From: Owenia fusiformis
Taxonomy: Eukaryota; Annelida; Polychaeta; Sabellida; Oweniidae
DNA: 64,000 nucleotides
Assembly: GCA_903813345.2 (NCBI GenBank)
Contig: CAIIXF020000011.1
Location: 31,426,166-31,490,165, forward strand
Direction of reading: 5' to 3'
Shown here one piece after another: positions 11,959-59,100 of this stretch. Every line of letters begins with the position of its first letter. Within the stretch, counting starts at the first letter, position 1. The position numbers and the translations under genes are program-made. A model generated the notes under the pieces. The model worked only from the letters and a program-made list of their open reading frames with translations, made no database searches and had not been told where the DNA came from.

Positions 11959-13515
11959 ATGACCATGGCTAGCCCTCAACCCTCAGAAGTTGGAACTGAT
12001 ATTGGCTTGCTTATTGGATCACCTGATTCTGTTTATAAAGAAAGTCAGGGGTCACCTGAATCAGCTGATATTCTGACCTTAAACCTGACTATCAACAAGT
12101 CTCCTGAACAGTCTCAGTGTTCTCAGGGGGCATCTCAAGCTCGTGCTTTGACTCCAAGAGAACCAAACTGCTCAACTAATCTTGCTTCACCTTCACAGAA
12201 TGACACTCAAAGGTCTGTCCATAAACGCAGAAGTAAACGTCTAGGCAAAAACACATTGCCTTTGGATCTTAATGGTACTTTCAACTCAGACTCAGGAGCG
12301 AAGCGTAAACGTCCCGTTCGAGCGTGTAGGACGGCCCCTAAGACCCCAAAGCTTCCTAAGTCCAACAAATTACATACTCGCTGTCTTCCAAATATGACTC
12401 TGATATAAACACTCGCAACCTAGTAGCTATCATACAAGACCTTAAGGTGGCAGTTGATAACACCACAGCCAAGGTTGATGCTTTGCAGAGCACAGTGAGT
12501 GCAATAAACACTACGAATCTCGATCTTGTAAAACAACTATCTGCCAAAACTGCAACCTGCAATGAACTTGAAAAAGAGTGTAAAAGCCTTCGTGAAACCC
12601 TTAACTGGCATAAAATGAACAAATCCCAAAATGAACCTGTCAAACCCCACCCCAAAAACGCTAGTGATTGGAAGTTCTATCGTTCGTGACCTCGATCAAG
12701 ATAAACTCAATGACGTTGAAGTTATTTCTATTGGTGGGGCAGACATTGATATGGTCCATAAGCGACTCACTAATTTAGACACCAAGTACCAAAAGGCTAT
12801 TCTTCAAGTAGGAAGTAAAGACTGTGCAAAATCATCAGATAAGGCCTCGATCAAAGCTAAATACCAATTAGCTATTAAAGGTGCCAAGAACATTGCTACC
12901 ACTGTTGCCGTTTCTAGCATTTGCCCTCGAACCGACAAAGAATTGGCGCAGAATACCGCCGATGCCCTTAATGCTGAGCTACAGATCCTATGCGAGGAGG
13001 AAAAGATCGAGTTCATCAACAATGACACAAATGGCTTTAAACTACAGAGTGGAGAAATAAATGAAGGTTATCTCTGGTCTGATGGTCTTCACTTATCAAA
13101 GCCAGGATCTAATAAATTGGCACGTAACATGGGACTCGGCTGTAAGACACGAGATGTTACAAAAAACAACCGTGCCCGTCAACAGCAACGTAACTTGCAA
13201 CACTCATCGCAGGCTACAGCCCAACACAAACCCACCAGCAACGATATTCATGTCCCCTCTTTGCAGCAACAACAGCCCCCCGTACGTGACCAACGTGCCC
13301 AGCCCCCCTCCCATGATATTTCACGTAACATTTCACCAGCCTGTTTTAAATGCGGAGAAAGGAGTCACCTTGCGAATTCTTGTTGGCACACAAATTCCAT
13401 ACGCTGCCACTCCTGTTCTAATTTTGGACATAAGAAAGCAAGGTGCCCATTCACACAAAACTTAAACCACCCTAATTTTGTTAATGGACAGTTTGGACAG
13501 CGCTGGCCACAATAG
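11959..13515 (+). pseudogene. Retrotransposon ORF1: coiled coil, SGNH-like domain, CCHC knuckles
   Basis: This is probably one protein of about 500 residues broken by two compensating frameshifts near 12387 and 12640. The first part (11959-12385) is Ser/Pro-rich and ends in a basic stretch (KRRSKRLGK, KRKRPVRACR). The middle (12387-12640, second frame) has heptad-like L/V spacing consistent with a coiled coil. The last part (12631-13515) starts with IGSSIVRDLD and carries DGLHLSKPG, the expected first and last blocks of an SGNH/GDSL-type hydrolase. The third block reads VGSKD where GxND is usual. Two zinc knuckles of CX2CX4HX4C form follow (CFKCGERSHLANSC and CHSCSNFGHKKARC). Such ORF1 proteins bind element RNA. 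The role of the esterase-like fold is not settled. Confidence 0.8.
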
Positions 13516-13650
13516 GCTTTAGGCAATGTTTCTGCCTTCGTCCCATCTGACTCATTTACAATATCTCCGCCCACTCCTGAACCTGTCATTCACCAACGTA
13601 ATCGCAAAACTCGTCGGGGAAGAAGAAAGATCTATACCAGCTCCACTCAA

Positions 13651-15654
13651 ATGACCTTTGCTTTTAATAATGTATGCCACTTTGGCCTTGCTAAACAGCA
13701 TGAGCTCAACCAGACTTTATCTAAATGTAGCTATGATATTGTTGCTATTGCTGAAACTTTTTTTGATGACACTAACACGCTTTCAATTTTAAATGATAAC
13801 TATGTGTGGATCCCTAAAAACAGAGTTGGTAAAAAAGGTGGGGGTGTAGGATTCTTTGTTAAGAAAGGAATAGTAATCCTTGAAAATGATTTACTTCACT
13901 CGAGTTGTGATGACCTAGAAAGATTATGGATTCGTGTTAAAATTAATAATAATGTTCTTAATCTTGGAGTTACTTACTTTCCCGTAGATGGAAAAAATTC
14001 AATTTTAAGCGAAAAGTTAATGGATGAGTTGATCTCTAATGTTGCAGAGGTTGAATCAGATGACACATATACTTTATTGATGGGTGATTTTAATGGGAAG
14101 GCAACCAAATTTTGTAAAGGGCAAAGCAGCCAAAATGGTAAACTTATCGATCTTTTCAGTGATGTCACAGGCATGCACATGTTAAACTCTATTAACTGTC
14201 AGGGTGAGATAACATGGTCAAGGGGAACTCAACATTCATCCATTGACTATTGCTTTGGTAACCATAATTTTATGAAGGTGTACCAAAATATGATTATTGA
14301 TGAAACCCACGAAGAGGCAAGTTTAGGTAGTGACCACTCTTTTATGATTATAAATGCTATACTGCCCTCTCAGTCAGGTAACCTTAAGACCAATGTTCCT
14401 CCTGATAATAAAGATGAAGATACTGTAATTTGGAACATCAATGATAACACAGATTGGGATTGCTTCAGAAACGCCATTAATACTGAATTTAGTTCCTGGG
14501 ACATTTCCAAGTGCAGTAACATTGAAGATGCATGGTCCTCATTCAAAGAGAATATAATGAAGGCTGCTCATATAGGGGTTGGGATTAAGAGGGTACCAAC
14601 GAACCATCGTTCATTTTGGGATAAAGAAATTAAATTATTAATCAATAATCGTAAAGAAGCATCACGCTTCTACCGATATTGGAGTCGTTCAAAGTCAGCT
14701 GACCCTGACATACTTCGAGAAATTTGGAACTTATACCTCGAACGTAAAAAACAAGTTCAGTTGAAAATAGTTGAATCACATGTAAAGAATCACATCAAAG
14801 TTTTAACTAGTAATGCTAGGTCACTTTCTAAATGTTCAAGATCCTACTGGAAAAAATTGAAAATGTTCAATGAAAATAATGGATATCCCATTCAAATCCA
14901 AGACCCTAACAACAAAGATATGATCTTAACTGACCCCAAAGCCATATCTGAGGCTCTACATTTGTATTGGGAAAGGGTGGGGCGTAATAATCGTAATCCA
15001 AAGTTTACCTCCAATAATCTATCAGATAAGATAGATTCTTTATTAAAGGAAACTAACTATGATAATAATGCCTTAAACAGCTTCTGCTTTACATATGCTG
15101 AACTTGTGCAATGTCTCGGAAAGCTTAATAATGGCAAGAAGTGTGGTACGGATAATATACCTAATGAATTTCTTAAATACGGGGGAAATACAATGTTTTC
15201 TTCCCTTTTTGACCTTTTTAACAAAGTAAAATCCCTAGAAGTTATGCCTACAGAGTGGAAAGAAGGATTACTTGTTCCTTTATACAAACGAGGTTTAAAC
15301 ATTGACTTAAATAATTACAGAGGTCTCACCATGAATTCCAATGTTTATAAAATTTATACTAGTCTACTTGATAGTAACATTAAACTTAACTCAGAGTCAT
15401 GTGACCTTCTTGGTGATTCCCAGGGAGCTTTCAGGGAAAATCTTAGACTTGAAAACCACATTTTTGCTCTAAAAGGTTTATGCTCACTTCGTAAATCCTC
15501 TAAGAAAAATACATTTTTATCATTTTTGGATATTTCTAAGGCATTTGATGTTATTGACCGCAATATGTTATTTGTGAAACTTTGGGAAATGGGTATTCAA
15601 GGAAAAATATGGCGGTTGCTCCATGAGGCTTACAGGGATGTTTGTAATAAAAGT
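13651..15654 (+). pseudogene. Retrotransposon ORF2, N-terminal part: endonuclease and RT up to motif A
   Basis: Residues 1 to about 240 form an apurinic-type endonuclease with its landmark residues visible: AETFF near the start, LLMGDFNGK, SSIDYCF and LGSDHSF. The RT follows, with KKCGTDNIPNEFLK, WKEGLLVPLYKRG, NNYRGLTMNS, QGAFRENLR and motif A FLDISKAFDVID. The reading then runs into the inverted repeat of the inserted transposon and stops at 15690, so the last residues (PVPSLSELTRI) belong to the invader. The enzyme would nick target DNA and prime cDNA synthesis from the nick. An in-frame upstream extension before the ATG at 13651 is possible. Confidence 0.88.
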
Positions 15655-16250
15655 CCTGTCCCTAGCCTCTCTGAGCTTACTCGGATTTAGAATGAAATAA
15701 CTTTTGATTTTCTTTTAGAAGATACCCTGAAGTGTAGGAATCCATAAGTTATTTTTTCAGGTTTGGGTAAAATCAATTTTTATGGCAGGTTATAGTGGCG
15801 CCATCTAGTGATTTTAAAGTTGCAGGGTGATAATCTTAATTAATTTTTTTTTCAGCCAAACCTAATTTCATATTTATTTTTTTGCTGTTTCCTTAGAGAC
15901 TACTTCCTAAACTATGCATTTGAATTTTTAGGTGATCCTGGAAGGTCATTTGATGGGTCATTTTGCCTCAAATATACAGAAGCGCCACCTATAATCAAGG
16001 GTCTACCTTATAAAGTTTATTATTCTGAGGCTGTTATGGTAGATAAAATTGTTATTATTGGTGTAATAATTAGAACCATAAAGGGGACATATGATGCAGT
16101 ATCAAATTAATATATGTGGGACATGGGAACTTAGAAAATTTTTTTTTTGTAAAAGTGGAAGAAATTTGACAAAATATCAGTTTTTACATATTACCAAATA
16201 CATATGCTTTTTTATTTCTAAGGTAAACCTAACATGATGTAACAAGTAGA
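15655..16250 (+). repeat. Left terminal inverted repeat of the 5.2-kb transposon
   Basis: Read inward, it matches the reverse complement of 20255-20848 down to a shared segment ending near taaacctaacatgatgtaaca on the left and taatccttatatgatgtaaca on the right. The arms differ by point changes and small indels in T-runs. The 100-codon frame at 20393-20695 on the - strand is simply the sense reading of this arm and is also present here in broken form. Confidence 0.85.
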
Positions 16251-16269
16251 AAAATATATATTTAGCCAA

Positions 16270-16600
16270 AGTGTCATAACACAGTGTGTCATGCTAATAA
16301 GTAGTCACATACCAAATATGAACAAAATCGCTCCACTACTTTTCAAGTAATTGCAAAAATTGTAAAATAGCACGTAAAAGACGCCATTTTCATGTCTAGC
16401 TTGACTAATGTCCTATAGAACTTTTTACATTTAAAACACATTGCTATTACAGTTCTATACACTGTACCTAAATAACTGTCAAATCGGCACTAAAATGGCC
16501 ACCATTTTGAAACGAGCGGCCATTTTGAAAATCAGCTTTCGAGCAGGACTTCTACCCCCATAGTGCACATGTATTGTTCAATTTTTTAGATGTTGATGTG
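16270..16600 (-). repeat. Reverse-oriented fragment of the CCGT-type dispersed repeat, inside the transposon
   Basis: The reverse complement of this stretch reads tagaagtcctgctcgaaagc, then gattttcaaaatggccgctc, like the segment at about 39180-39240. It also contains the phrase for a gtagtggagcgattttgttca block found three times at 39420-39760. It lacks both outer ends of that repeat. Confidence 0.7.
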
Positions 16601-16625
16601 TTTATGTTATATAATTAAGTTTTTA

Positions 16626-16702
16626 TACAGGATGTCCCAAAAAAGTGCCACAAAATACATATATAATATATATAGTTTTGTGGCATTTTTTGGGACACCC
16701 TA
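16626..16702. repeat. Palindromic MITE of about 77 bp
   Basis: Begins TACAGGATGTCCCAAAAAAG and returns as CATTTTTTGGGACACCCTA around an AT core, so nearly the whole element is a hairpin. The CAGG(A/G)TGTCCCAAAAAA end and the TA at the boundary fit a mariner-derived MITE. It lies inside the 5.2-kb transposon. Confidence 0.75.
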
Positions 16703-17549
16703 TGTTTCAAAACATCATAAAGTTTTTGTAAAACTAATTAAATATAGTCTGGTTTTGTTTCATACAAAATTCAGATATGGATTTTGAACTAATGGTTTCA
16801 TGAAGAGAGTTATAAATATCATGGGATAAAAAGCTTATTTACTGAGAGGGATTCAATATGGGTTTATAATGTGAAAATATGGGCCCTCAGGAAATATCAT
16901 ATTGTCCCTTGGACGGAATAAACCCCATATTAAATCCCTCCCAGTTAAATGGAAAATTGTGCTGAAAGTTTTGCTTCGTTCAAAAATCTTTCAAAAATCT
17001 AGTGTTTCTAAGTACTTGGAAGCATCACAGATTTTAAATTGGATATGGCAAAATTTATGGTCGATTTAAATTAAAAAATAATCATTGGACTGTGCCAGTC
17101 AGCTTTTGTACCATACTGGTTCATTTCTGCTAGCTGCATGTACCAAGGGTGTGAAAGTCTTCTTAATTATGGGAGCAGTTTCATGAACTTTATGGAATAA
17201 ATTTTTCTAATTTTACAAGAATTCAATTTATAGAGGTTGTTCTTTATGATAGAAATTTTGATCCAATCCTCGATAGAGTCACATGTTATTTTTTAAATAA
17301 ACAAGAAAATTCAGTTAGAAAATCCAGAAAATTTTCACAAAATGTTCTCACTGAATTTTCTATTTTTTTATATATTTTATCAAAAAAATCTTCTCTTAAC
17401 AGTGTTTCCTAGGTGCATTAGTGCACTCTTTGTGCAAAACTGAAAGATGAAGACAATTTTGGGAAGGCGTGATTGATATCTAAAAATTAACATGTGACTC
17501 TATGGAGGATTGCATCAAAATTTTTATCATACAGAATTACCTTAACATA

Positions 17550-18152
17550 CAGGGTGTCAAATAAGTCCCGTCCCGTCCCCCCCCCTCTACAGCCAAAACC
17601 AAGATATATGGTATCAAGTGTGATATATCATTGGATAGATTGTCCAAAGTTACGTTGATTGGCATATAGCTGAAACCTGTCAATCAATGTTACAAATTGC
17701 TACATTGTATCAATTGAGGTGACCATAGACCTAAAAACATGGCAATTTTACATATTTTAGGCAGGATTTTTAGAATCGGGCATCAGAAGTCAAAGGAACC
17801 CAAAATGTCAACATTTTGTGTTTGGCTGTAAATTCAACCAATTTCTGGATAGGGTTATGTGTGTAGAAAATAGAGGGGTGAGGATAGTGATAGTGAAAAC
17901 TCTTTGATAACAGGTGGAATGCCAATATTTTTGAGGTCAAATCCTTCTCATTTTGACGCAAAAAGGGCCATTGGAAGAGAGTACACTAACTATAAAGGAT
18001 ACTATCAAAATATAGATAAATTTCATCCAAAATACTTGAGAGTTGGTGAGTTAACGTAACTTTGGATGATCTTTCCAATGGTATATCACACTAGGTACCA
18101 TCTATTAAGGTCTTGGCTGTAGAGGGGGGGACGGGACTTATTTGACACACTG
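17550..18152. repeat. MITE of about 600 bp with CAGGGTGTCAAATAAGTCCC ends
   Basis: The left end reads CAGGGTGTCAAATAAGTCCC followed by a C-run and CTCTACAGCCAA. The right end is the reverse complement with small differences and finishes at 18152. The match continues inward for roughly 100-120 bp, including a shared accttaatag/ggtatcaagtg-type region and a gttacgtt word. It encodes nothing convincing; the 63-codon frame at 17770-17961 is not supported. No clear target duplication. It sits 16 bp downstream of the stop of the Cys/His-rich gene. Confidence 0.75.
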
Positions 18153-18168
18153 AATAAGTACTTTTAAA

Positions 18169-19287
18169 TTATAAATGATTAATTACCAATTTTACAGCAT
18201 CTATCTTGCTTGCCAGAAGAAAATCCTGAGACTGCCTCTTGCTGTGCTTTATAAATGTGACATCTTCACCAAATCGCTTACGCAAATATTTGGTGACAAG
18301 TTGCCCTTGAACAGGGCTACGTTGAAGGCGGTCACCGATCTTTTTGCAAATCTCTGATACAGAGAAGGCTTTTCCTGTATTCAAGTCTTGTTGAATTTCA
18401 TTGATGACATCATTAAATACATCATACATATTTGATTTATCATGAAGAGAATTTGAATCAGTACTTTTCTGGTATTTATGGCTGTATTGTTTGTAACAAT
18501 AGTTATGGTATAAGAGATCAGTTTCAATCACTCCTTTCACATCAGTGAGGTGACAGGTGCTGGTATACACTTCATCCTGTAAGTGTTGGGTTTGTACAAG
18601 AAACTCGGTAGCTTTCTTCTCTTCAGAAATTCGGGATTTTTCATATGTTTTGTTTTTTGTGACCTGATTACAATATATACAAACATTCTGGTATTTAGGT
18701 ACATCAACAGCTTCAACAGAGGGCCTTTGTGGTAGGGAACATTTCATTTGTTTGGGTTGTGCTGTTGACGAATGAGGTGTATTTCCAACCATTCCTTCAA
18801 TGGTTTCTTCAGTATCAGTTTCAGTTTCTTCAGTTTCTTCATTCCTTTGTGGAAGGGAACATTTCATTTGTTTGGGTTGTTCTGTTGAGGAATGAGGTGT
18901 GTTTCCAACCATTCCTTCAATGGTTTTTTCAGTATCAGTTTCAGTTTCTTCATTCCTTTGTGGAAGGGAACATTTCATTTGTTTGGGTTGTGCTGTTGAG
19001 GAATGAGGTGTGTTTCCAACCATTCCTTCAATGGTTTCTTCAGTATGCCGTTTTTGGGTGTATACTCTGTAGCAAGCATTGTTCATGTGATATAGAATAG
19101 GTGCGTTTTCAAGTTTGGCTACTTTCATACGTTGATAAACTTCATCATCTTTCATTTTGCTTATTCTAAGCAAGGTTGCAACACCTCTTGCTTGTCCAAC
19201 AGTTGGCTTGACAACATTGCTGTTACTGTCTTTAAAATCATCTTGGCAGATAATACATTTTCCTCTTTCAAAGTTTATAGAAGCCAT
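18169..19287 (-). CDS. Transposon-borne Cys/His-rich protein of unknown function, 372 aa
   Basis: I do not recognise this protein. The N-terminus has a CIICQDDF pair of cysteines, then HMNNACYRVY, a pattern like a zinc site closed by H...CY..Y. The middle is three tandem copies of a unit of about 40 residues (ETIEGMVGNTPHSS...QPKQMKCSLPQR) separated by Glu/Thr runs. The C-terminal part repeats the theme with CIYCNQV and, further on, YTSTCHLTD and YHNYCYKQY. The paired CXXC / H..CY layout suggests two zinc-binding modules. It is the only sizeable ORF of the long-TIR transposon and could be part of a transposase or an accessory DNA-binding protein. A MITE lies only 16 bp beyond the stop, so the original C-terminus may have been lost. 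Confidence 0.65.
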   Translation of the reverse strand: MASINFERGKCIICQDDFKDSNSNVVKPTVGQARGVATLLRISKMKDDEVYQRMKVAKLENAPILYHMNNACYRVYTQKRHTEETIEGMVGNTPHSSTAQPKQMKCSLPQRNEETETDTEKTIEGMVGNTPHSSTEQPKQMKCSLPQRNEETEETETDTEETIEGMVGNTPHSSTAQPKQMKCSLPQRPSVEAVDVPKYQNVCIYCNQVTKNKTYEKSRISEEKKATEFLVQTQHLQDEVYTSTCHLTDVKGVIETDLLYHNYCYKQYSHKYQKSTDSNSLHDKSNMYDVFNDVINEIQQDLNTGKAFSVSEICKKIGDRLQRSPVQGQLVTKYLRKRFGEDVTFIKHSKRQSQDFLLASKIDAVKLVINHL

Positions 19288-20254
19288 TTAGGAAGTTAAC
19301 TGGAGAAGAAATAGATTGTTAGTGATTTTAAAATATTCAATCTCTGGGTCTCAAAAATACAGTCACAATTCAGGATCATGCATAGTTTATCATGTAACTG
19401 GGTTCATTTTAGTTATTAACGTTAATTCGTTAATCCATATGCAAGGAAATTTGACTTTCAAAGAAAAGCTGGATGTGATCATATGTTTTATTTTCCTAGA
19501 CACCAACTTACATTCTATATTAGAAATAATTTGAATCATTGTAAGTGATCATAATTTTAATTCTTCTATTTTGTCGAAGATGAGCAATCTTTATATCTTA
19601 AATAAACCTTAAGCTTACTTACTTTAATCACATTTTAATAATTTTGTTTCCACCAATTCAATACATGTTCATCTGTAGTCTCAAATATATACTAAATACA
19701 AAAACAGAGGTTAGTCAATAAGTCAATTATAGAGGATTACTGTTTTAAACAACCTTCATGCTAATAAGATGTAAATTACCCCAAAATTAGCTGCCATGGC
19801 TTTTAACAGGAGTTTCAGTTTTGAGTTTGATATTAACTTATGATGGTATAAATATAATATAAAATTAGATCTAACTCCATTTGGGTGGGATAGATTGAAG
19901 GATCATTTTTTATTTGAAAAGTGTAGATACATCTTTTGAGAAGCTCTAATTTTATACAAAATGTTTCTGGCAAAAATTACCTGTAAAATAAAATATAATT
20001 TATTCTAAAAGTGCACACTTATGGAAATGATATGATTAATAGATGTTATACTCTATTAATACAAAGAAACTCAGGAAAAGCTTTTCATACATTCATTAAG
20101 TACCGTGTTGTATTTCCAGAAGTTGAGTCTTTGATATAATAAGGGGTGTATATCAAACACAGAATAATTAAATAATAATAATGGGCCAAAACCAAAATTC
20201 AGCCCTACAATTACTTCATTCATATTCTCAAAAATCAAAATGTATTTGTTTGTA

Positions 20255-20848
20255 CTTGTTACATCATATAAGGATTACCTTAGAAATAAAAAAAGCATAT
20301 GTATTTGGTAATATGTAAAAACTGATATTTTGTCAAATTTCTTCCACTTTTACAAAAAAATTTTTTTCTAAAGTTCCCATGTCCCACATATATTAATTTG
20401 ATACTGCATCATATGTCCCCTTTATGGTTCTAATTATTACACCAATAATAACAATTTTATCTACCATAACAGCCTCAGAATAATAAACTTTATAAGGTAG
20501 ACCCTTGATTATAGGTGGCGCTTCTGTATATTTGAGGCAAAATGACCCATCAAATGACCTTCCAGGATCACCTAAAAATTCAAATGCATAGTTTAGGAAG
20601 TAGTCTCTAAGGAAACAGCAAAAAAATAAATATGAAATTAGGTTTGGCTGAAAAAAAAATTTATTAAGATTATCACCCTGCAACTTTAAAATCACTAGAT
20701 GGCGCCACTATAACCTGCCATAAAAATTGATTTTACCCAAACCCGAAAAAATAACTTATGGATTCCTACACTTCAGGGTATCTTCTTAAAGAAAATCAAA
20801 AGTTATTTCATTCTAAATCCGAGTAAGCTCAGAGAGGCTAGGGACAGG
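20255..20848 (-). repeat. Right terminal inverted repeat of the 5.2-kb transposon
   Basis: Reverse complement of the left arm. Its close match to the left arm argues that the insertion is fairly recent compared with the decayed mariner relic at 32565-33615. The DNA between the ORF and this arm (19288-20254) is AT-rich, and I see no second gene in it. Confidence 0.85.
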
Positions 20849-22268
20849 ATCAAAAGTTATTTTTGGTAATTTTACCTCTCCATGGTATTCTAGTACTTCT
20901 GGATTAAAGCAGGGCTGTTGTTTATCCCCATCCCTATTCTCACTAGTCATGACTGACTTAGTTGATAGACTGAATAAAGAAAACCTTGGTATTCCATTTA
21001 ATAACATTAAAGTCCCAACATTACTTTTTGCTGATGACATTGTTCTTATGGCCGAAAGTGAGAGCCAACTGAATCATATGCTAAAAATTGCAGATCAGTT
21101 TGGTTCTTGCTGGGGATTCAAATTCGACCCCAATAAATCTAAAGTAATGGTTATTGGCAAGCGAATAGATAAAAATAAAACTTGGGTATTAGGTGACCTT
21201 GAAATCAAAGAAGTTGATACTTACAAATATCTTGGCATCCATCTAAATAGGCAATTAAGAGATAACTACCACGTGAATGTTGTTTTAAAAGAAAAGGATA
21301 AGAAGTTAAGAAATCTAGTTGCATCAACCCTAACTAAGCATATTAACTATAATAGAATATCATTTGGTAATACATTATACTACTCCCAGTACTTCCCTGC
21401 TTTGTTGCATGGATGTGGTGTTCTAATTCTTGACAAGACCTCTGAAAAGACCCTTTCTTCAATGCAATATAAATTGGCCAAATCAATTTTTCAACTTAAA
21501 TGTAACCCTGCCAAAGCAGCAATGTTAGGTGACCTTGGCTGGAGAAGCATTATTAACATTATTCAGAAAAGACAAATTGATTATTTTTTATATCTTAAGT
21601 TCTCCATGAGGAACGGCCTACATAAGGCAATTTTTGATAAACTGTTTGAACATTTCAAGGGAAGAGTAAAAACATGTTGGCCATATTTTGAAAACATACA
21701 AGACATTTTAATTGAACATGGCCTTGATGATGTTGTGTTTAGAGATGACAATGAATGGTATGATTCTTTTTTGACCATATCCTCCCAACAACACAAAAGT
21801 AATTTTCTATCTGAATGTTCCTCGAAATCTTCACTAGAATTTTATGAATCAATCAAACAAACCCCATTTCTGGAGAATTACCTTACTTCAAGTAATGATT
21901 TTGTTGGACAGAGATTGAAGTTCAAAGCCAGAACTGGGTGTTTGGGTATTGGAACTGACCTCAAAAGAAGAAAATGTGATGATGGTTTTTGCAAACTTTG
22001 TTCCCTTCATCCAATTGATGATTTAACACACAGATTTTTTACATGTAGCCACAACCAACGTGAAAGAATTGATTTTTACAACAGAATTAAAACCTCATGC
22101 TCCCCTGATGTATTTAATATGTTCTTAACGCTTCCTTTAAATGAAAAATTAAAGTGGTGCCTAGGAGATGTTGTTTTTAGTATTTGGGGCAAAGACCAAG
22201 GATTCTTGTTTGACAAGTGTGTCAAACAATTTTTAGTGACTATTAATAACGATATTTTAAACTCATAA
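20849..22268 (+). pseudogene. Retrotransposon ORF2, C-terminal part: RT motifs B-E and C-terminal zinc finger
   Basis: This continues the interrupted RT. It contains motif B (SGLKQGCCLSPSLFSL), motif C (LLFADDIVLMAES, with the catalytic DD), the WGFKFDPNKSKVMVI block and YKYLGIHLNRQ. Near the C-terminus is a CX2C...HX4C finger (CKLCSLHPIDDLTHRFFTC), as found after the RT in many APE-type elements. The first ATG is at 20949, but homology clearly extends upstream to the transposon junction. The frame on this side does not join the upstream half cleanly when the transposon is removed, so there is also a 1-base shift next to the insertion site. Confidence 0.85.
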
Positions 22269-36400: not shown

Positions 36401-39400
36401 ACGTCAAAAAGTCATATTTTTGTTAATATGTCAGAAATATGTTAAATAGAACTACCACATGATGCCCGTAAGTTGCTGAAGACATAAAAATTATATAAAA
36501 AAGTCATAGCCTCATGGAAAACAGCTTTTGACATTTACTCATTGAACTTAGCTTTAACGTGTCATTGTCCTCTTGGTTTTCAAAAAATTGGCAATCTTGA
36601 CATCAAAAGTCATGTCTTGGTAACAGTTCACTGTGTGAACACAGGGGCAATGGGTCCTTTATTCTAAATTTAATAAATAGATTTTAAAAAACATGGAATT
36701 AATTTCTACACCTTGTGTATACAATGTGAACATAACATTAAATATTTTCTCCATTGAATACAGAGAATTTTTATTCGATTAAACACAGTATTCAAGAGCA
36801 CAATCATATACATATATTTCGCAGATGTAGCGGTATGTGTATATTACTATCCTTATTGTCCCCACAATAATAAATAACTGTCTTATTTTCATTCAATCGC
36901 ATTGTCTCCCTCATAGTCCATACAGATTTCGTACCATGTACGCACTTTCTTAGGGGTACATCTGTTATGTATTCCTTTGTCGGGTCCCTCGAGTGCCCAC
37001 AGGAGTCCCTTTTCCGAAGCTGCAACTTTCAATTTTGAAGTGGCACTGGGATATAGGATGGGATTCATATGGGAGTCAGCTGTCAGATCCATAGGTGGAG
37101 GGCATTTTTGGAGGTTTTCATCTGGAAAATTAGAATATTGAGTTTTTTCATTCTTCTGATTGTTTGAGAAATCTCAAATGCAACTCATTTGATTTCGACT
37201 CTATCCAGCTATCTTCCTTTAATATTAAAGGGAAGGATGTGATTCTATGTTTTTGCATTTGACTGTCTTGTGATATTTTGCACCAGATTTACTCCTGTTT
37301 TGCTGTATTTTGTGCTATTGTAAAAAAGATCAAATCTTACCATTATATTTCTTGTCTCTTTTCCTTGTCACCAGCACCCCCTTAGCTATGGTCACCAATA
37401 TTAGTATGCCTATTTCAATCATGTTTTGAAGATTTAAAAGCACAATGAATGTTAACTTCTACCTCCAGCAAAATCAAACTCTCAGTGTTTACTTTAGCAA
37501 CCAAAAGTATTGTGATACCATCAATTGTACCTGTGACATCATAAGTACTGTTTGTGATGTCACAAATACCAATTGAATTCTCATATTCTTGAGTTATTGT
37601 GATGTCATGTTTGTTTATGGTTACAGTTGGTAGTTATATAAATAAAATTATGACATCACAGTTCAAGTATTCTGTTTAGTAGTCACTGTGTGTTTCCATA
37701 GCAACAAAGTATAATTTGTATTCATTTATAACCATCAAAATTGACTACATGTATTTGTTGGTGATTTGTTAGTCTCACAATTAAAGATGCCTGACCCCTA
37801 ACCATTATTTTATCCATACTCTTTGACTCCCTTGGTGATCCTATAGGATCCATCTATCCATCCATAGGTCAGTCTGTTCATCAGTCCATCCCTTAACATT
37901 GGTGGTAATGCTATTTAACATTTAAACATGGGGATTAATGAAATGTTTGCTTTACATTTGCAGCGCCTGTTCAGGATCAGCAAGTGTTCAACTTTGACTT
38001 TGATATGAATCCTGTCTACATAGCTGCAGACTTTGCTGTTAGGTTGAATGTACAACCAGTTGAGATAGTCTATGATAAGGTACAGTAGGTCTTGAATTTT
38101 AGCTCTATGATTTAATAAAATGACTCTTTGGTATTCAGTAAGTTTATTGTTCAAAGTGATTTCAGGTTTTTTATTATTCAGAAAAATTACATAGACTTAT
38201 GATTAATTTGTCTATTTTATTTTTTGAATATCTTGCTACTAGTGTCTCATGAAATAGACTAGCCTAATAATAATTATCAAGAGGAATCAGGTTTTTCTAT
38301 CACATCTTGTATTTCTTTGATATTTGACTTTGCACATACTACCAGGCTGCAATCTACTTGTACTGATTTTCCTTCTTGCAGCACTCCTTGTCTGAAGTCC
38401 TGTCATTCTTCCAAGCTGCAAGCGTAAGTGCATCGGACATAGCAGCCGCAGCTACATCTAGTTTGAATCAAATGGTGGAGATCTCTAGGGCAGGCCTGTA
38501 TTATGCCATTAACCAACACAAGACCATACATCTCTCTGTCAACATGCACTCCCCCTATGTTGTAATACCAGAGTATGGAACACTGCATAGGTGGGTTTAA
38601 AGTATTTTATGATTCCCTGTTCATCAATCTCCCTGTTTTTGCCACTGCCAAGAAGTTATGACATGTTCCAGAACATATGACATAAATACAATAAATATGT
38701 CAGAACATATGAGAGACAATCTGTCATTGGAGAACTCCCGACTGAAATATGACTATAATATTTATTTATGTTTAAAGCCGTGATAAGCCATTGGAAGCCT
38801 GTTTATATGAAAAAATTAACATACATGTGTAATGCTTGGTTGTGTTTCAGAAGGGGCAATGTGCTTGTTCTTGACTTTGGTAAACTGAAAGTTGAAAGTG
38901 AGTTGCAGACCAAGGATATCAACCTAGAGGACGCCACCTTCTCTGAGATTGAAACACGGCTGTATGATAAGTTTAACATAACGGTCACAGATGTTAAAGC
39001 TCTATTGGCTGACTCAGGTAATATTACTTTTTATCCCATCGAACGAAGTTCGGAGGGATATAGGGAACGCCTCCGTCCGTCCGTCCGTCCGTCCGTCCGT
39101 ACGTCCGTCCGTCCGGACAATAACTCAAATACCGTTGGCCCAATTTTGTTCATATTTTGTACACATATACCCTATGCAGGTAGAAGTTCTGCTCGAAAGC
39201 CGATTTTCAAAATGGCTGCTCATTTAAAAATGGCGGCCATTTTAGTACCGATTTTACAATAATTTAGGTGCAATATGTAAAACTGTAAAAGCAATATGTT
39301 TTAAATGTAAAAAAACTATATAGGACTTTAATAAAGCTAAAAATGTAGATATTAAAGAAGCACATGGCAGCCATCTTGAAAAATGGCGGCCTTACTCGTT

Positions 39401-42400
39401 ATTTTACGATTTTTGCTGTAAGTCAAGAAGTAGTGGATCGATTTTGTTCATATTTGGTATGTGAATACTATAAGCATGACTCACTGTCTAATGACATTTT
39501 TGGTAGGAAGCAGCCATTTTGAAAAATGGCCGCCATTTTGAAAAATGGCCACCATTTTAACATATTTTACTATAACTCAAAAAGTAGTGGAGCGATTTTG
39601 TTCATATTTGATATGTGAATACTATAAGCATGGCACACTGTCTAATGACACTTTTGGTAGAAGGCGGCCATTTTGAAAAATGGCCACCATTTTGAAGTAT
39701 TTTACCATTACTCGAAAAGTAGTGGAGCGATTTTGTTCATATTTGGTATGTGAATACTATAAAAAAAAGCATATTACTTCTTCTGATGACAACTTGGCTA
39801 CTGAGCAACCATTTTGAAAATGGTGGCCTTTCTTATGTGTGTTATTTTATGATATTTGCTATATACTTAAAAATGCCAGTCATTTCTGTTCGATGGGATT
39901 CGCTACGCTTTGGCGTTGCCGTTGTTCTGGTTACTGTGATATTTAATTACATCTAAGGAAATATTTGCCTCAAGACTAATGGACTCCACATTTTAGCTTC
40001 AATTGATTTATGTAAGGTAGATCAGACTCAGATCATTTCTCGCCCTAGTGTTCTCAGAGATCCATATATTTCCTCAATTTGAAAATTATGAACAAAAATG
40101 ATTTTTTCAAAACACAATTGGTTAACTGTAAAATCTTATTCTGTTTATTTATTTTATATATTATCATTATCTGTCCATTTATAATTTCCCCTGTAACTAT
40201 AGTACAAGGGACATTATTATACTACCGGTATTTTATTTTATTATGTTACAGGAGATGATTGGCATACAGCTCAGACACAAGCAGACTCCAAATACCACAT
40301 TATCCCCACTGTGGAGATGCAACTGTCCTTCTTTAACACAGTCAAGCCAGACTACAAGGCCCTTCCTCAGTAAGTACAGTATTTAAGATAAATATGGAGG
40401 TGGTAATTAAGAACTAAATATATAAAATGAACAAAACTTAAAAGATAAAAATTAGGATATTACTGTATATTTTTGCCAAACATGTTTGTACATAGATAGA
40501 TAGTGCAAAGATGCCAAACTTTACTTGTAGATGCCAGAACAAAAACCGAAAAATTGAAGTATTCTGATATTATTGTGTATTTGGACCAAACATTTTTGCA
40601 CATAATGTAGATACTTAGATAGATACATATGTTACTTGTAGACAAAAGATTGTTGCAAATCTTCCCACACTGAAGCTGAATGTATCTGATGAGAAGATTG
40701 TTATGCTGTCTGACTTTCTCCAAAACATTCCCCTACCCAGTCATAGTGAGAGTATACCAATGATGATGTCTGACAGTGTAGATGGGGGACTGAATGTTGA
40801 TACAGTACATCCAGTGTTTGTAAGTATTTAACCAATTGTCACATCATTTCACAATGAATCATATTAAGATTTTATTGCATTCTCCATAACCCATCTTGTA
40901 ATTAGGTGAAGTGGTATGTTATTAAAAGTTTGAAGGCCCTAAGATTTATGAATCAAATGAAATGAATGAAATCGTATACAATGAAATCAAATGAATTATT
41001 ACAGAGTATGGAGGAAGTAGTGCTAGAACCATCATTGAATGACCTCAAGGCACTACGACGCTCTGTATGGAACAACTCAGTTATAAGACGACCAAGATTT
41101 AAACGAGATCAGGTTGACAGAACTGCCAAAAGATTATCTCACCTTGTAATTCCAGGTATTGAATTATTTTATGTTTGGAAATCAACTTACCATAAAAATA
41201 ATGGAGTTCAATTATGTTATGTTGCCATAGAAAAAATCAAAGTGCTCAATATGTACATAACATCCAGAAAACCAGATCAACAATGACAATTTCGAAGCTA
41301 AATTTGATTGGTTGATCCATGGTTGATTGCAACATGCGATATGCACGCTCATCCGAATGATTGATTGATTGAATGATCAATGGATTGATTGTATGTTTGA
41401 TTGTTTTGCAGAGGATGAGGAATATTATTCTGCCTCAGACCACTCTGATGAGGAAGTGGAGGAATGGGCAAGGTGAGTTTTTTACATTTATTTTTTCTCA
41501 CTTTTCCTTGTTTATTTCACCTCCATACAAAATAAAAGGCTTCTGTTGTGATATGTAATTTTTCCTTTTTTCTCTGTAGGCTGTAGTCTCAAGTTTCATT
41601 TTTTAATTTTTTAGATGTAATATTTTTCAACTTTTCCGATACTAGAAATTCAGGGGTAGGTTGTTGCAGTTCAAATCGAGACGCCATATTTGTTGTTCAG
41701 GGTAAGTTTGTTATAGCCTTAAAAATACTTTGTGTTAGGTTAAATTTGTATCCATCACCAAATTTTTTTACAATTATGTATTAAGTACCTACTTCTTAGA
41801 TAATAATTGTTTTCAATATATGTCAATGTGTAAAAGTCTACCCAAACTACCTGATTTCTCGATTCGTATTTCAGGTGAACCGACTATGCTGTGACTTTGC
41901 TTTGACTCTGCATGGCTATGGACTACAGGCAAGATTAGGTGGAATAGAGCTGGTGGATAGACTACATACAGGTATATAGCAATGCCAATGGGGAAGCATT
42001 ATAGGGATTTCAAAAGGTATTAATCAACAAGGTACATAGCAATGCCAATGGAAAATCATAGAGAAATCACAAGGTATTATGAGTTTATCTTTGGCAAACA
42101 AAATCACTTAACTAGAGTAATCAATGTGTCTTCTCCACTTTTTTGTTGCATTTAACAGCCATACTTAAAACTTTATTAATTTACTATGTAGGTATAGAGG
42201 GCCAATACCTGGAGATTCTCAGTTCAAAGTCCGAGTCTGACCTTATGATGCTCACCTATCAAAGAGTGGAACCTGAGTGTCCTGATTTTGCTGGAGTTTA
42301 TCAAAGTCGCGAGCATGATGTCATACTAAAAGGAACCAATCTGAGTGTGGTGTTTGATAGAAATGCTGTTCTGTACTTGAAGGGTTTTGTGGAACAGTTG

Positions 42401-45400
42401 TTAGCGAGGTAATTGGATATTACATAATCATCCTTAATCATAATCCCCAGGGTCTGACATCAGTGCAAACTCATAAGCTGGAGTATATGAAAATATATGA
42501 TAAAATGCACAACCTTTGTAATTCAGTCTGGCATGTAGATCTATATTCCTTATGAAACAACTTGAAAATCCCTTCCACTATATAATCACCTTTAGATGTT
42601 AAACAAACACCCCTGGACATACATGTTGGGCCACAAAATGTTACCTATTCTGATTGAATCTGAAAATCATAAGGCTAACATTTTTACCCACTCTGTATAA
42701 TAATCAATCACCCATTGAAAGTATAACATAACTCACAAGATACATGTAAGTAATTTTGTATTGTATTTTTCAGGATCCAACCACCAATTACTGAGACAGC
42801 TATCCCAGCAGTCCCTCCAGAGGAGGACAAGGCATCCCAGCAGCCTAGTATATTCTCTACAATGATGGAAACTGCCAGTTAGTACACTTTGCACTTTGAA
42901 TCTTTTTTGCATTTGAATCTTTAATAACTTCACCAATTTAAAAGATATTTGGGATCTTGTATGAGATCATAGGGAATAGATTAATGGGTCAACTGTGCAT
43001 TTTGCTTGCAATTTGGTCACCCCTTATAGATCTCATTCTGCCCTTAAGTAAAGTGGCACTTTATTCATTTGTAGCTGAACGTCCAGAGCCAGGGGGCACT
43101 AAGGTGAATGTGGCGACATCTTTTGATGAACTTGCAATTAAGTTGTGCAATGATGAAACCCGCTTTGCTGAGATACATATAAAAGGTACAATTTAGATTA
43201 GATTATTTGAAAACTTGTATTCTAAAAATAATACAAAAAGATATTCTCAATGATCATGTATAATATTCTTCTCAGTTCAGTCTTTCTCTCAAAAAGTTAT
43301 ATTATTTTCTGAGTTCAAAGATTTTTATAATTCCAGGAATGGAAGGCAAGGTACAAGTCAAGTACACACGCACTATATTACAAGGCAGGCTCAAAGATAT
43401 TACAATAGATGACTCCAGATCTGAATATTATCCAAAGGTTAGTATTCGCATCAGAATATGCAATGCAGGGATTACATTTTGTGATTCAGGGGTTACCTGT
43501 TCGACTCAGGGCTCACATATTGCAAATCAGGGGCTGTAAATAAAAAGTACTTACTGGCTTACCAACACAACATGAGACATGAAAGAGGTGAGAATAGATA
43601 AATAAGAAACACTCAAACAGTAGGGTCCATTCACATGGTCAATCCCCGGAAGTGATTTGCTATTAACAGACAGGGGTGAATTTCATAAATGTACATTAAC
43701 ATTTCAGATTCTAGCCATAGAGGACAACAGTGTCTTCGATCTGAAAGTTGTTATAAACAATACTTCTCCACAACCCCCTGGAGACAATAAGAATAAGCCA
43801 AGGTATGTGATTAGCAAGATGTTTATTTTCCCTTAATGAATTCAAAACTGACTTTAATACAGCATCAAGTTTCAAAGGATGTAACTGTGTTTTGTTCATT
43901 AGGTAGTCCAGTATTGCAGCTGAAACAGATTTTTGAATGGCTGAAGTCCTTATATTACGGAGGTTTCCTTTGAAACAAAGATGTAAAAATAATCTGAAAT
44001 GATTTTCCATTTATTCAATGTTAAAAATTGTGAATTGCACATTTGGTAAACTTGTATATAAAAAGAATAATAAAAACAATATGCTTTTGCTAATTAGGGA
44101 AAGAGATTCAAACAAGAAGCTTGGAATAGATGCCAGTGTTAAACTAAGAATTGGACGCATCTACGTGGTCTACTTGAACAAATTCATCATGGACATAGTG
44201 GTAGGTTAACTGCTTTGAAATGTTTTAATTTTCAACAACACACTGTGTGTTCATTTGACTTTCATGTAGTAATGCCTGGTGAAATACAGGGTAAATATTG
44301 TTTGAAATAAACATGTATGTGGAAAATATTGTGGAATTTGGAAAAATCGTATTCAGAGGTATTATCTTTACCCCATCCTAGTATGAGTTTCCTTATGGTA
44401 CCATCAGCTCAACAAGGGGCATCGGTTACATAAATGTTTGTTCCCTTGCATTAGGTATGAAACTTCAAGCATTTTCAGGTGCTACCGTTCAGGTTAGGTG
44501 TTAATTGTAATGGGCTTTGTTTGGCACCTGTTACAGGCTAACCACTAGTCTATGAGATTAATAGTAAAATGTCCTGTGATTATAGACTGAACATACTGAA
44601 CTGAACATACTGAATATTTCAATTTAATTTCAGCTTTATTTCTTAATAAAATACTGATACAAATATTTTGAGACTTGTAATGATTTACCTGATATATTTT
44701 AGGATTATGCTGAACCTTTCTACAACCCAGAGTACACACAGTCTGCTACTAAAGCTGCAAGACAAGCTGTTGCTAGACAGGTGAGGGTTAATCATTATCA
44801 TCTTTTAGGGCAGGAAATTGTTAACTTTCTTTCTTTTTTCCAAATCAATCCAGATATCTTCTGGATACAAGCACATCATTTGTTTAAGGATGGATCAATG
44901 AATTTCAACTTCATATATTTTTTTCTCTAAGTACACCTGTTGGTAAATTTGTTTTTCCATTTCTATAATTTACAGTGAATAATCTTAATTTTAGAGAAAG
45001 TTCAAATTGTAGAAGCACCCCTGGTCCTTATGGCCCTTTTATAATACACACACTGCTGTACTCTCTAAGCTATAATTAAACATTTTCTGACAATATTTTG
45101 ATTTTTACATTGTAGGTCCAGGAGATTCAAACCAGAGGAATGTGTGTATCACTCAACTTAGATGTGAAGGCTCCCACAGTTCTTGTACCTCAGAATTCCA
45201 AATCTGCAAATATCATACTGTTAAAGCTGGGAGACCTGAGCCTTAAGAACTACTTTGAGCAAAGTAAGATGTTGAAAGGAAACCAGTCATATGATCACAT
45301 CTATATGCACCTGGACTATGTAGAAATTACAAGGTGGGTTATGGTTGCGTATATTGGCATGTCTTTTATGATGAAAAATATTATTAAAGTGATACAAATA

Positions 45401-48400
45401 TGGGTTTCTTTAAAACCGACAGAAGATAAAACCAATGAAAATGACAGACAAAATTCAACTATTCAAATTATGATTTTAACGTGGAAGAGCTTTTTGGTAA
45501 AAACAGCCAAAGAAAATTCCGTTTCCAGCTACCAATCTCAAATCCATGTCTGACTGAATACATACACTTATATGGTATGTTACACCCTTAAAATGTTGTA
45601 GACATTAAAGTGTTGAATGTCTCCAAGCAATCATTAAGCCCATACCTGTTATACATGTTCCAGGGCTGTACTATCCATGGGAGGAAAGGTGGAACCTGTA
45701 CATACAATAGTCGAACCCATACGTATGAGGGTTGATGTTAAACGTGCCATAAAACCTGTCATAGTTGAGACAGGAATTGACATATCAGGCAGTCTACAGG
45801 AGATTAAGGTACACTTTATGATATACTCATGTATTATCTTTTTCATTCCAGAAGTACGAAATTCACCAATCTATAGTCCATCATTTAAATTAGTAAGATT
45901 GTATTAATTCTAGTGAATAAGTTTGTGACTGTTCAGTGCTATTTGGCCAATTTTATATTCTCGATCAGGAGTACATTTTGATTCTTACAGATAAAAAATA
46001 GTCCGAACAATTGTTGTTGTAGACTTGCATCTGTGAATGAATGCTATATAATCAGTTATAACTTGAATGACATATTCACTTAGAGCTCATGTTTTTATAA
46101 CTTAGTCACCAAATAGATATATGAAGGTAATTGCCATTACAAGGAATTCACATGTATTACCTCACCCCAGTTCTGCAGTTCTGATTTCTTTTATATACTA
46201 TTATTTTATTGATTTGGAAATAGCTAGTTGGGCTAGTGTGGTACTGATGTCATTTAAATTAATATTAACCATCCCACTGAACAAAGTTTGGAAGGGATAT
46301 AGAGAAATGGCTCATCCATCTCTTTGTCCATTCAAATTTGTTTGTCTGTCTGTGTTTTTTTCTAATTTTTATTATGGTTTCGGGATGCAATTGTTTTTGA
46401 TTTCCATTTTCAAAATTTTCACAACAGAGCTCCTCGGTAGGGCTCTAGGAAGATATGATTATACTGATAAAACCCAGAAGAAATGAAATATAGTTTTCAA
46501 ATCAAAGCTTAAGACATACATTAGTCTTATCCCTTTCCTTAACAATGTATTATATTTCAGTGTTGTGAGGAAAGGGAGGTTATTAACTTATTTTGATTTT
46601 CAATGATTCTTTAAATTATAAAAAAATATTTAAAAAAAATACCCATTTCAAATTGTTCAAAATTAATTTATAATAAAATTACAATGTAAAGGCACAGCCG
46701 TCAGAAAAAGGTGGTATATTGTTTACACAGGAATGTTAAATTCAAGCTACTAACCAATCAATCCCCCCCCCCCACTAATGCTCATCCACAAAACATACCA
46801 ATATTTCATTTTAAAATTTCTGCATGTTGCTTTTTACAGGTTAACTTGACACAGCAAGATTTGAAGATTGTCATGGCAACACTTAGAGAGAACCTCTCTG
46901 ATGGATCTCCACAGTTAAAACCAGGTAAGAAAGAAAAATGAAAAGAAAACTGACAGTGACAAACAGACAGGTTAAAAGAGGACTAAAAATGGAAGAAACA
47001 AACAAGATATTTTAATTTTGAATCTTACTTATATTATTCGTCAAAGATAAGAAGGCAGCATTATATTTTAACAAATTAATGAATCTACTTTTGTACTCCC
47101 AGAGAGCAATGAGGTGTTTCTGCCTGATATAGCTGAGGAGACTGAGGAGTCGACTGATGCCACTGTGTCACCAAGGGTGAACACTGAGCCTGGGGGTCAA
47201 ACAAAGGTCAGCTTCATTATGGATGGAATGATCTTGACCTTGAAAACTGATGTAAAACAGGGCGACTTAATGGTATGTATTAATATTTTCTCGAGGTTTT
47301 TATTTAATTTTACTACTTGTATACTTATATTACTTTGTACGGATTGAAATTTTGAAAAAATGGCATGTTTGTTGATAGTTTAAAAACTATTATACCACTC
47401 ATACTGCACAGTTAATCTTGATTTCAACCCTTTTTTATGGGAGAATACTATGAAGGCCACGCCTCATGTAAATAAGATTGCACTGAGCTACTTTACTGTA
47501 TTGTAAATGTACATGTATATCTCTGATTCAGATCATGTCACCGGGGTCTGGCAATACATCTGATGGTTTGTCAAGGTTTGAAATTGGCCGCATTGACATG
47601 TCAGTTTTCATGAATCCTGACACTTCCATGGAAGTAGGCATCAGACTGCAGTCTCTTGCCATGGATGATATACGCCCTGACAGTCAGCTTGCTATCAAGA
47701 GGTATGTGTGCTGTGTGATGCTTAGTCAAGGAAAATAATATTAAACTTTGCATGGGGCCTTTAATTCAGAGGTTGAGTCAAGTATCAATGAGTCTCTTTT
47801 TCATTTTGTTTGTGGGGGTAAGAAAAATTGTTCAAAAAAGTTTTAGTGAAAAACAATAGCAATTCATTTCATTGACCATATTGAAACAGATTTTCCACTT
47901 GTAGAGTATACATCAAATATATTGTATTCCTTTATGATTTCACTCCCATGCTTGTCGATCCATGAACCCATTGACATTATTTTAATATTTTCACTCACCA
48001 TTTATTGTTATTATAGGATATTGCAGTCTCATCTTGACCTGGCCCACCCTCAACAAAAGAAAGCTGACCTGCCCCCTATGGTCGATTTTACTTATTTACA
48101 GGACCCAAATGGAAATATGAATGGTATGTTTACTTGTTATCTTTATAATATAGATTACAGACCTAGTGGTCAAAATGTAGATTATGAACTACTTGCTGCT
48201 ACTTTCAATATTTATCTGTACATGCGGAAAAAATTCAGCCTGCCCAAATCAAAGCCATCTTTTTTGTTTGCATTAAGCCAACAGTCCTACACAATAGATG
48301 ATTTCAGTATATATGATGAAACCAGGTTGAATACATCTACTTCATTTCCTTATGTCCAGTGGATGTCTTACTTCCTTTCATCAGGTCCTCATACATGTAT

Positions 48401-56100: not shown

Positions 56101-59100
56101 TAGAACTACGTTCTGCATAGTTAGTTAATGGAAAAATCATGATTATTTAAATTCAACTTTGAGAAACAAACTCCAACTCATGGCCACTCTCTGGAAACCA
56201 ATTGTACACTCAAAATAAAACGTGGGCTCTTTTTAGAAAGCCAGCATCAATCAAAATCAAAATGATGATTTTTCCAACCTACTGCTTTGTTAAATTCTTA
56301 TTTTGAATTTTTATATTGCACTAACAAATCTGATGGGTTTTTTATGGGGGGGGGGGGTTATAAGTTGATTAGGTGAATAACTAAAACGCAGCATTATATA
56401 AAGAAACATTATACAAGGCTGTATGCATATTGCACTAATATACAGTAAAACCTGTCTTAGTGGAACACCTTTGGTACCTCTAAAAAGTGTTCCACTTATA
56501 GACTCTGGGGTTCATTTAACATTGAGTCTCTTGGTCTTTTGACTCTGAAAAGTCCACTTCTAGAGGTGCTCCACTTCTAGAGGTGTTCAACATTACAGGT
56601 TTCACTGTATAGTTAAATGTACATGAAAGAATAAAATCCTAACTTAAACCGGAATAATTTGCTATTTGGTTGCATTGCATGCTGCATTATATTAAATGAA
56701 TCTATATTTCTGTTCCATTCGCAATAACTACAGGTGGATTTAGCATTACACAATATGATTACATGTTAAAATATCTATATTATGCATTGTGGTTGAACTT
56801 GCTGCATTTCCAGCTATGATATGTAACAGCTATCTACATATTCTCAAATAAATAAGATGCAAATGCTGATATATTTTAAATGATAACTGCTATCTATATC
56901 TTCTACATGAGATGCAAATGCTGATATATTTTAAATGATAACAGCTATCTATATCTTCTACATGAGATGCAAATGCTGATATATTTTAAATGATAACTGC
57001 TATCTATATCGTTTACATGAGATGCAAATGCTGATATATTTTAAATGATAACAGCTATCTATATCTTCTACATGAGATGCAAATGCTGATATATTTTAAA
57101 TGATAACTGCTATCTATATCTTCTACATGAGATGCAAATGCTGATATATTTTAAATGATAACTTCTATTTATATCTTCTACATGAGATGCAAATGCTGAT
57201 ATATTTTAAATGATAACTGCTATCTATATCGTCTACATGAGATGCAAATGCTGATATATTTTAAATGATAACTGCTATCTATATCTTCTACATGAGATGC
57301 AAATGCTGATATATTTTAAATGATAACAGCTATCTATATCTTCTACGAGATGCAAATGCTGATATATTTTAAATGATAACAGCTATCTATATCTTCTACA
57401 TGAGATGCAAATGCTGATATATTTTAAATGATAACAGCTATCTATATCTTCTACATGAGATGCAAATGCTGATATATTTTAAATGATAACTGCTATCTAT
57501 ATCTTCTACATGAGATGCAAATGCTGATATATTTTAATTGATAACAGCTATCTACATATTCTCAAATAAACAAGATGCAAATGCTGATATATTTTAAATG
57601 ATAACAGCTATCTATATCTTCTACATGAGATGCAAATGCTGATATATTTTAAATGATAACTGCTATCTATATCTTCTACATGAGATGCAAATGCTGATAT
57701 ATTTTAAATGATAACAGCTATCTACATATTCTCAAATAAACAATATGCAAATGCTGATATATTTTAAATGATAACAGCTATCTAGTATCTATATCTTCTA
57801 CATAAGGTGGATATTTCGTTACTAATCACTGCATTGTTTTATCAAATGATATGTGTTATAAATGAAAAGTGAAAATTCTTTTTGCTTTAATTTGATTTAT
57901 AAATAATTCAAGTTATGTGGCAATCATCTGCTTTTCTTTAGAATATGTATGTATATATTATAATTTTTTAAACAAAAGCTAGAATATTTTATTGCCCGAA
58001 TGTTTATACAAGTATATGTAAAATAAATTCTAATATGAGTGTCCCCATTGTAGTATAAAATAGCCGAACTGAATCTCTGAATATGTATCTTATTTTGTAG
58101 TGATGAAGATGAAGTGGACGGCCTTGGGTTCATCGCTCGTGCCCTAGCTGGGGTGGGACATACCGCTATATCTGCTGGGGCCTTCATTTCACCTGATGAC
58201 GATATAAACCCTCATGGTACACATACTGAAGTCCAGCCAGATACTATGCACTTAGAGGTATGTTGTAAAAGGTAGCATTGAAAGGGGGGGGGGCATAAAG
58301 CCATATCTGCTGGGGCCTTCATTTCACCTGATGATGATATAAACCCTCATGGTACACATACTGAAGTCCAGCCAGATACTATGCATTTAGAGGTATGTTG
58401 TAAATTGAAAGTGGGGGGGGCATACAGTTGTATTTACCTTTGTACTTTGGAAAACTATACCCTATGGGTAATCTTGGGGATAAAAAAACTGTAGAGCTAG
58501 AGAGATTATCACATATGATATACTAGTTACACTGTTTCTTGAATGTCAGTCCATAATGTCCCTTAGCATTGAAGATATCCCTAACTATCTGTGAAGATGT
58601 TTCTATATTTCGCAAGTCTAGTAGGAACCCCTTTTAATATTATCTCATTCCAGATATAGATATCTTCACTATCATTATGGCCCTAATTATCTTATTTCAT
58701 GTTTAAATATTACAGATAGATGGCTTTAGTGACTTGTACAATTTGTCACACAGAAAGGCTGTGAAACATCTTATACCACTCTCTCCTGAAAAGGTACGAA
58801 GTTCTTAAGTTATATTTTACTCCAGTTTAGGCTCTGAACATCTGTGTTTTTAGTTACTGAATTTTTAATCTTGCTCAAGCACAACTCCTGTTAATCCCTG
58901 GGACCCAGACACTGATTATAGAAATCCCAGAAAGTTATTTGTATTTTATTGAAATAATGAATACACGTCAGACTATAAGTGGATTGAGTGAGAAGTGAGT
59001 TTTTATGTCACCACCAAAAGTGGTGACATATTGTTATGGTCTCCGTTTTTTTATGTCACCACCAAAAGTGGTGACATATTGTTATGGTCTCCGTTTTTTT

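Follow-up and report, generated by a model that had tools for sequence, protein, structure and literature searches.

The 64,000-nucleotide stretch of contig CAIIXF020000011.1 analysed here (the window; G+C 33.8%) contains a long interspersed nuclear element (LINE) whose reverse transcriptase gene is interrupted by an insertion of 5,194 bp, at positions 15655-20848, which is bounded by long inverted arms and carries one substantial open reading frame (ORF). The insertion has the anatomy of a terminal inverted repeat (TIR) DNA transposon, and we hypothesize that it is a non-autonomous copy of such an element. It is described from a single copy within this 64-kb window, and its main features and those of the interrupted LINE are as follows:

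13516-15654, plus strand: left part of LINE ORF2, with the endonuclease and the start of the reverse transcriptase, open
15646-15654, plus strand: left flank, candidate duplication, AATAAAAGT
15655-16263, plus strand: left TIR, 609 bp, tip CCTGTCCCTAGCC
18169-19287, minus strand: ORF of 372 amino acids (aa), with module 1 at residues 11-79, module 2 at residues 203-271 and a C-terminal part modelled as helical at about residues 285-371
20238-20848, minus strand: right TIR, 611 bp
20849-20857, plus strand: right flank, candidate duplication, ATCAAAAGT, 2 mismatches
20849-22268, plus strand: right part of LINE ORF2, with the remaining reverse transcriptase, open

The two arms are 97.5% identical over 611 alignment columns, differing by 13 substitutions and 2 gap columns, and the substitutions are unevenly spread, with 3 in the first 475 columns and 10 beyond column 475. 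The 20-bp tip, when up to 3 mismatches are allowed, occurs twice in the window, once at each end of the element, against an expectation of 0 from 100 shuffles; neither a 22-base TIR tip nor a fragment of the LINE had a match in viral contigs. The insertion splits the Pfam domain RVT_1 between the two flanking ORFs, such that profile positions 6-106 fall to its left (at 28.0 bits, which narrowly misses the curated cut-off of 29.6) and positions 113-205 to its right (69.7 bits). An insertion bounded in this manner by inverted terminal repeats is characteristic of TIR cut-and-paste elements (class II), and a structure of the TIR DNA transposon type is thereby supported. An original prediction, made from the bare sequence, had placed near-identical inverted ends around an insertion in a reverse transcriptase gene; both the ends and the site are as it described, but the arms measure about 610 bp rather than the 590 bp that it gave.

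Since both halves of the LINE are still open (the left part runs for 713 codons without a stop), the LINE is apparently a young copy, and the element must have entered it more recently still. The prediction took the near-identical ends as a sign of recent activity, with which the similarity of the arms and the open LINE accord, although the two mismatches between the flanks fit a very recent insertion badly. The imperfect flank is likewise there as described (7 of 9 bases are equal between AATAAAAGT and ATCAAAAGT), but a duplication of 8-9 bp, to which it would correspond, is not established: of twelve joins in which between 0 and 11 bases were taken out, only those shortened by 1, 4, 7 or 10 bases leave the LINE frame open; when 8 or 9 are removed, the reading shifts and meets a stop. 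Either the LINE copy had therefore already suffered a one-base shift, or the junction was altered later, or there was no classical duplication. Fourteen bases of the right flank (20849-20862) are an exact repeat of positions 20795-20808 in the right arm (ATCAAAAGTTATTT), a match that was spotted post hoc; arm matches of at least 14 bp are found for 23 of the 58,680 20-mers tested from the window beyond the element and the sequence next to it, and for none of the 4,420 LINE 20-mers. Standing beside an imperfect duplication, this match suggests that the right junction may have been reworked, and a template switch or conversion there would account for both peculiarities. Upstream of LINE ORF2, a further ORF (12619-13515) includes a stretch resembling GDSL (31.3 bits at E 3.5e-7, slightly under the cut-off of 32.9) and, towards its end, what look by eye like CCHC knuckles.

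The 372-aa ORF is the only one of at least 110 aa on the element's gene strand, and its length compares with chance stop-free runs of at most 171 codons when the element was randomised 300 times with a first-order model. Across its three codon positions the G+C content falls from 0.477 to 0.340 and then to 0.290, a pattern frequent in coding sequence. The paired CXXC and H..CY..Y motifs that had been noticed in a 372-residue frame were recovered and mapped to two modules built on one plan: C-x2-C, 52 or 54 residues, H-x4-C or H-x2-C, and then Y-x2-Y (C11xxC14..H67x4C72Y in module 1 and C203xxC206..H261x2C264Y in module 2). The modules are 28% identical when aligned with MAFFT, and full shuffling never reached their alignment score of 58 in 2000 trials, while 2 of 2000 shuffles with cysteines and histidines held fixed did. 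Judged by their sequences, they are the same Cys2-His-Cys module in duplicate, and may bind zinc and DNA. Between them lie about three in-frame repeats of 37-40 residues (tandem period 111; spacings 120 and 111, which are multiples of three), and the last 95 residues of the protein are modelled as helices with a mean predicted local distance difference test score (pLDDT) of 70.8.

Upstream of the ATG, the same strand offers a possible intron:

19300-19980, minus strand: possible intron of the 5' untranslated region, with CAG|GTAATT as its donor-like site and, 12 bp ahead of the ATG, an acceptor-like site rich in pyrimidines

Splice sites were scored with a matrix and ranked on the ORF's strand of the element, where the donor-like site at 19980 came first among 231 GT sites. 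The acceptor-like site has pyrimidines at 12 of 15 positions, as many as are reached by 5 of the 119 YAG sites on the ORF strand; window-wide, 96 of 3,321 YAG sites reach 12 pyrimidines without an AG. Another acceptor-like site adjoins the donor directly and would leave no exon between them. The top-ranked donor and the acceptor before the ATG agree with a real spliced gene.

The search for a transposase gave no match in Pfam, a collection that includes the MULE, SWIM, FLYWCH and KDZ profiles. Nothing reached the curated cut-offs when the whole 372-aa ORF, ten chosen sequences, the six read-through frames of the interior (16262-20238) and the six of the right arm were compared with it; the ten comprised eight ORFs from the interior, one frame of 104 aa located within the right arm, and the 372-aa ORF's own C-terminal half. 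The sub-threshold matches, all set aside, were to Phage_lysozyme2 for the ORF (E 0.082); to DUF7700 (0.26), MjAgo_N-like (0.024), ADC (0.14) and DUF6559 (0.048) among the ten sequences; to DUF1697 (0.052) and DUF4982 (0.018, the best) among interior frames, which were listed to E 0.1; and to Sgf11_N (0.16) and DUF624 (0.54) in the right arm. The C-terminal half of the ORF also gave a zf-BED match (E 0.18, 12.3 of the required 20.6 bits), which was set aside too and is the sole trace of the features of hAT elements, a BED zinc finger and a hAT dimerisation domain. No encoded DDE/D transposase was thus recognised by Pfam, and a non-autonomous copy need not have one; the statement that neither a DDE nor a known zinc motif could be seen holds as far as Pfam reaches. 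Neither the 372-aa protein nor its parts had a match in viral contigs, prokaryote genome contigs, phages, plasmids or PHROGs, nor any meaningful one among PDB sequences (a single match at E 0.25 in one search, none in another). Animal genomes make up none of these collections, and scans of contigs detect nothing beyond close relatives, so that little can be read from the lack of homologues. Among the literature matches listed, no title or start of an abstract describes such a protein, which we do not claim to be unpublished. Scans of Rfam and for tRNA genes returned nothing, and a scan for bacterial-type promoters found 7 sites where 8.3 were expected.

Much of the remaining interior consists of other repeats:

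16268-16572, no strand assigned: dispersed repeat stretch of 305 bp just inside the left arm, 75% identical over 339 columns to 39163-39500
16629-16701, no strand assigned: short palindrome with ends CAGGATGTCCC and GGGACACCCT
17234-17542, no strand assigned: nested inverted-repeat element with 66-bp arms, 88% identical
17547-18155, no strand assigned: nested element with inverted ends 82% identical over about 110 columns (93% in the outermost 28 bp), its edge 13 bp past the ORF stop

The palindrome is presumably a miniature inverted-repeat transposable element of the Tc1/mariner type, and the two larger nested elements lie only 4 bp apart. Past the ORF stop the element continues for 1,905 bp, of which these three palindromic elements together take up 991 bp, or 1,296 bp (about two thirds) when the dispersed repeat is included; the other 609 bp are in pieces, the largest of 532 bp with stop-free runs of at most 64 codons, and upstream of the ORF (19288-20237) such runs reach at most 80. 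From the blank Pfam results, the repeats and the shortness of the remaining frames, we infer that an intact catalytic core is absent from this copy. Elsewhere in the window, positions 39163-39758 hold a repeat of GGCCATTTTGAAAATGGCC-type units related in pieces (75-93%) to the dispersed stretch, whose shorter matches, at 85% and 93%, extend up to 39758; positions 261-376 are 76% identical to 17348-17466, within the first of the two larger nested elements.

As the element contains no recognisable cutting enzyme, it probably moves with the help of a relative. We think it reasonably probable that the insertion belongs to a cut-and-paste DNA transposon with long TIRs, as a non-autonomous copy moved in trans. 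An autonomous relative at another genomic site would supply a DDE-type transposase, which would bind the ends of about 610 bp, excise the element and insert it at a new site, here the reverse transcriptase gene of a LINE, while the catalytic part would have been lost from this copy or never have been in it. If the 372-aa protein is produced, we would expect it to bind DNA, and perhaps the arms themselves, whether as the front part of a transposase, as an accessory protein or as a repressor; its probable place is in the transposition machinery that belongs to the element, either as the DNA-binding front part or in an accessory role. Large invertebrate proteins in which two similar N-terminal Cys/His modules are followed by a catalytic-looking domain shaped this reading, and are not evidence for it. 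The original prediction had left the choice between a new family and a non-autonomous form that kept a passenger gene; the non-autonomous option is the better one, since no transposase was recognised, but the duplicated Cys2-His-Cys module and the helical C-terminal part make a passenger less likely than a DNA-binding protein of the element's own.

The readings to be weighed against or within this one differ in where they would place the element and what they make of its protein. In Mutator-like elements (MULEs) TIRs are commonly hundreds of base pairs long and duplications span 8-11 bp; for Phantom, TIRs of 18-613 bp and duplications of 8-10 bp or not indicated are given, and in aphids a minisatellite follows the ORF (excerpt of PMC6446971). 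The arms of about 610 bp and the candidate 9-bp flank fall within these ranges, and a Phantom-type MULE derivative whose transposase is encoded by an autonomous partner, which would be one form of the trans-mobilised copy that we favour, is possible but doubtful: the Pfam scans gave no MULE, SWIM or FLYWCH match, the duplication is imperfect, the zinc-type module is unlike the types tabled for Phantom (none, FLYWCH or SWIM), and MULEs are not the sole owners of long TIRs. Molluscs are not among the Phantom hosts given in that excerpt of PMC6446971, which also reports that MULEs tend to acquire host gene fragments. The 372-aa protein could be such a captured host gene or gene fragment, a reading in keeping with the lack of transposase similarity in Pfam; a frame of 372 codons that starts from an ATG and contains a duplicated zinc-type module is unlike a short captured fragment, and it matches no known family at the curated cut-off, so that we regard a passenger as unlikely. 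A MULE transposase was looked for and not found, and the element is accordingly not filed under MULE or Phantom.

Kolobok elements duplicate TTAA, which is absent beside the arm tips, and Academ elements make duplications of 3-4 bp, which the 4-base flanks of the insertion (AAGT and ATCA) do not match. Kolobok and KolobokP are, like our element, animal DNA transposons with long terminal repeats, but those of KolobokP are direct and ours inverted (excerpt of PMC9587614). Among mollusc DDE/D elements, Academ comes next in number after TcMar and hAT, is apparently restricted to bivalves and there has a mean length of 5,565 bp, near that of the insertion (excerpt of PMC10294476); such elements would be expected if the host were a bivalve, a point on which the G+C of the window does not discriminate. 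KDZ/Zisupton elements also have TIRs, and Zisupton makes 8-bp duplications (excerpt of PMC12730594), but the duplication here is a candidate only and no KDZ transposase match was obtained in Pfam. An internally deleted member of Academ, KDZ/Zisupton or another known superfamily, with an N-terminal region lying outside Pfam, would again be a special case of the non-autonomous copy, and with no catalytic domain in the element for comparison we rate it as rather unlikely. That the 372-aa protein is instead a complete transposase or recombinase of a new kind could be argued from its being the sole sizeable ORF on the gene strand and matchless in the families and collections searched; since these collections held no animal genomes or proteins, the matchlessness is weak, and two zinc-type modules, a repetitive linker and some 90 helical residues leave little room for a catalytic core, which makes this reading very improbable. 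There is a slim chance that the element represents a superfamily of DNA transposons with long TIRs that is new to science, and in which the recombinase of autonomous copies starts with tandem Cys2-His-Cys modules.

Several observations weigh against a non-autonomous copy with a DNA-binding protein of its own. The reading is drawn from a single copy; a transposase too divergent for Pfam would have escaped the scans; and the mismatched flanks, with 8- and 9-base joins that leave the LINE out of frame, do not present a clean duplication. Close to the end of the ORF, no donor-like site ranks higher than 33rd of 231, which lends no support to a loss of downstream exons from the gene. One of the Cys/His-fixed shuffles scored 71, above the observed alignment of the modules, and the internal repeats, with synonymous and non-synonymous differences of 0 and 1, 3 and 3, and 3 and 4, bear no sign of selection. 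The model of the whole ORF is unusable (pLDDT 36), and that of the C-terminal 95 residues has no structural match at E <= 0.001 in BFVD or PDB (best E 1.7 and 1.5), such that DNA binding by the protein is something we infer.

As it is, the locus records that an element which seems to be non-autonomous inserted once into a young LINE, an event that is commonplace in genomes. If the ORF is the front part of an uncatalogued transposase, the combination of tandem Cys2-His-Cys module, helical part and 20-bp tip would provide a handle with which to search for the autonomous element and to place it among the DDE superfamilies.

At some distance from the insertion, the window contains an exon-like ORF (45116-45550) with weak similarity to the middle region of VPS13 (PF25033, E 2.6e-6, 26.3 bits, cut-off 50). 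Taken with the LINE and the nested elements, this similarity points to a genome of animal type. Two tandem arrays lie further along: one at 56855-57790, with 16.9 copies of a 55-bp unit and 93% matches, and one at 59213-60624, with periods of 136 and 281 bp.

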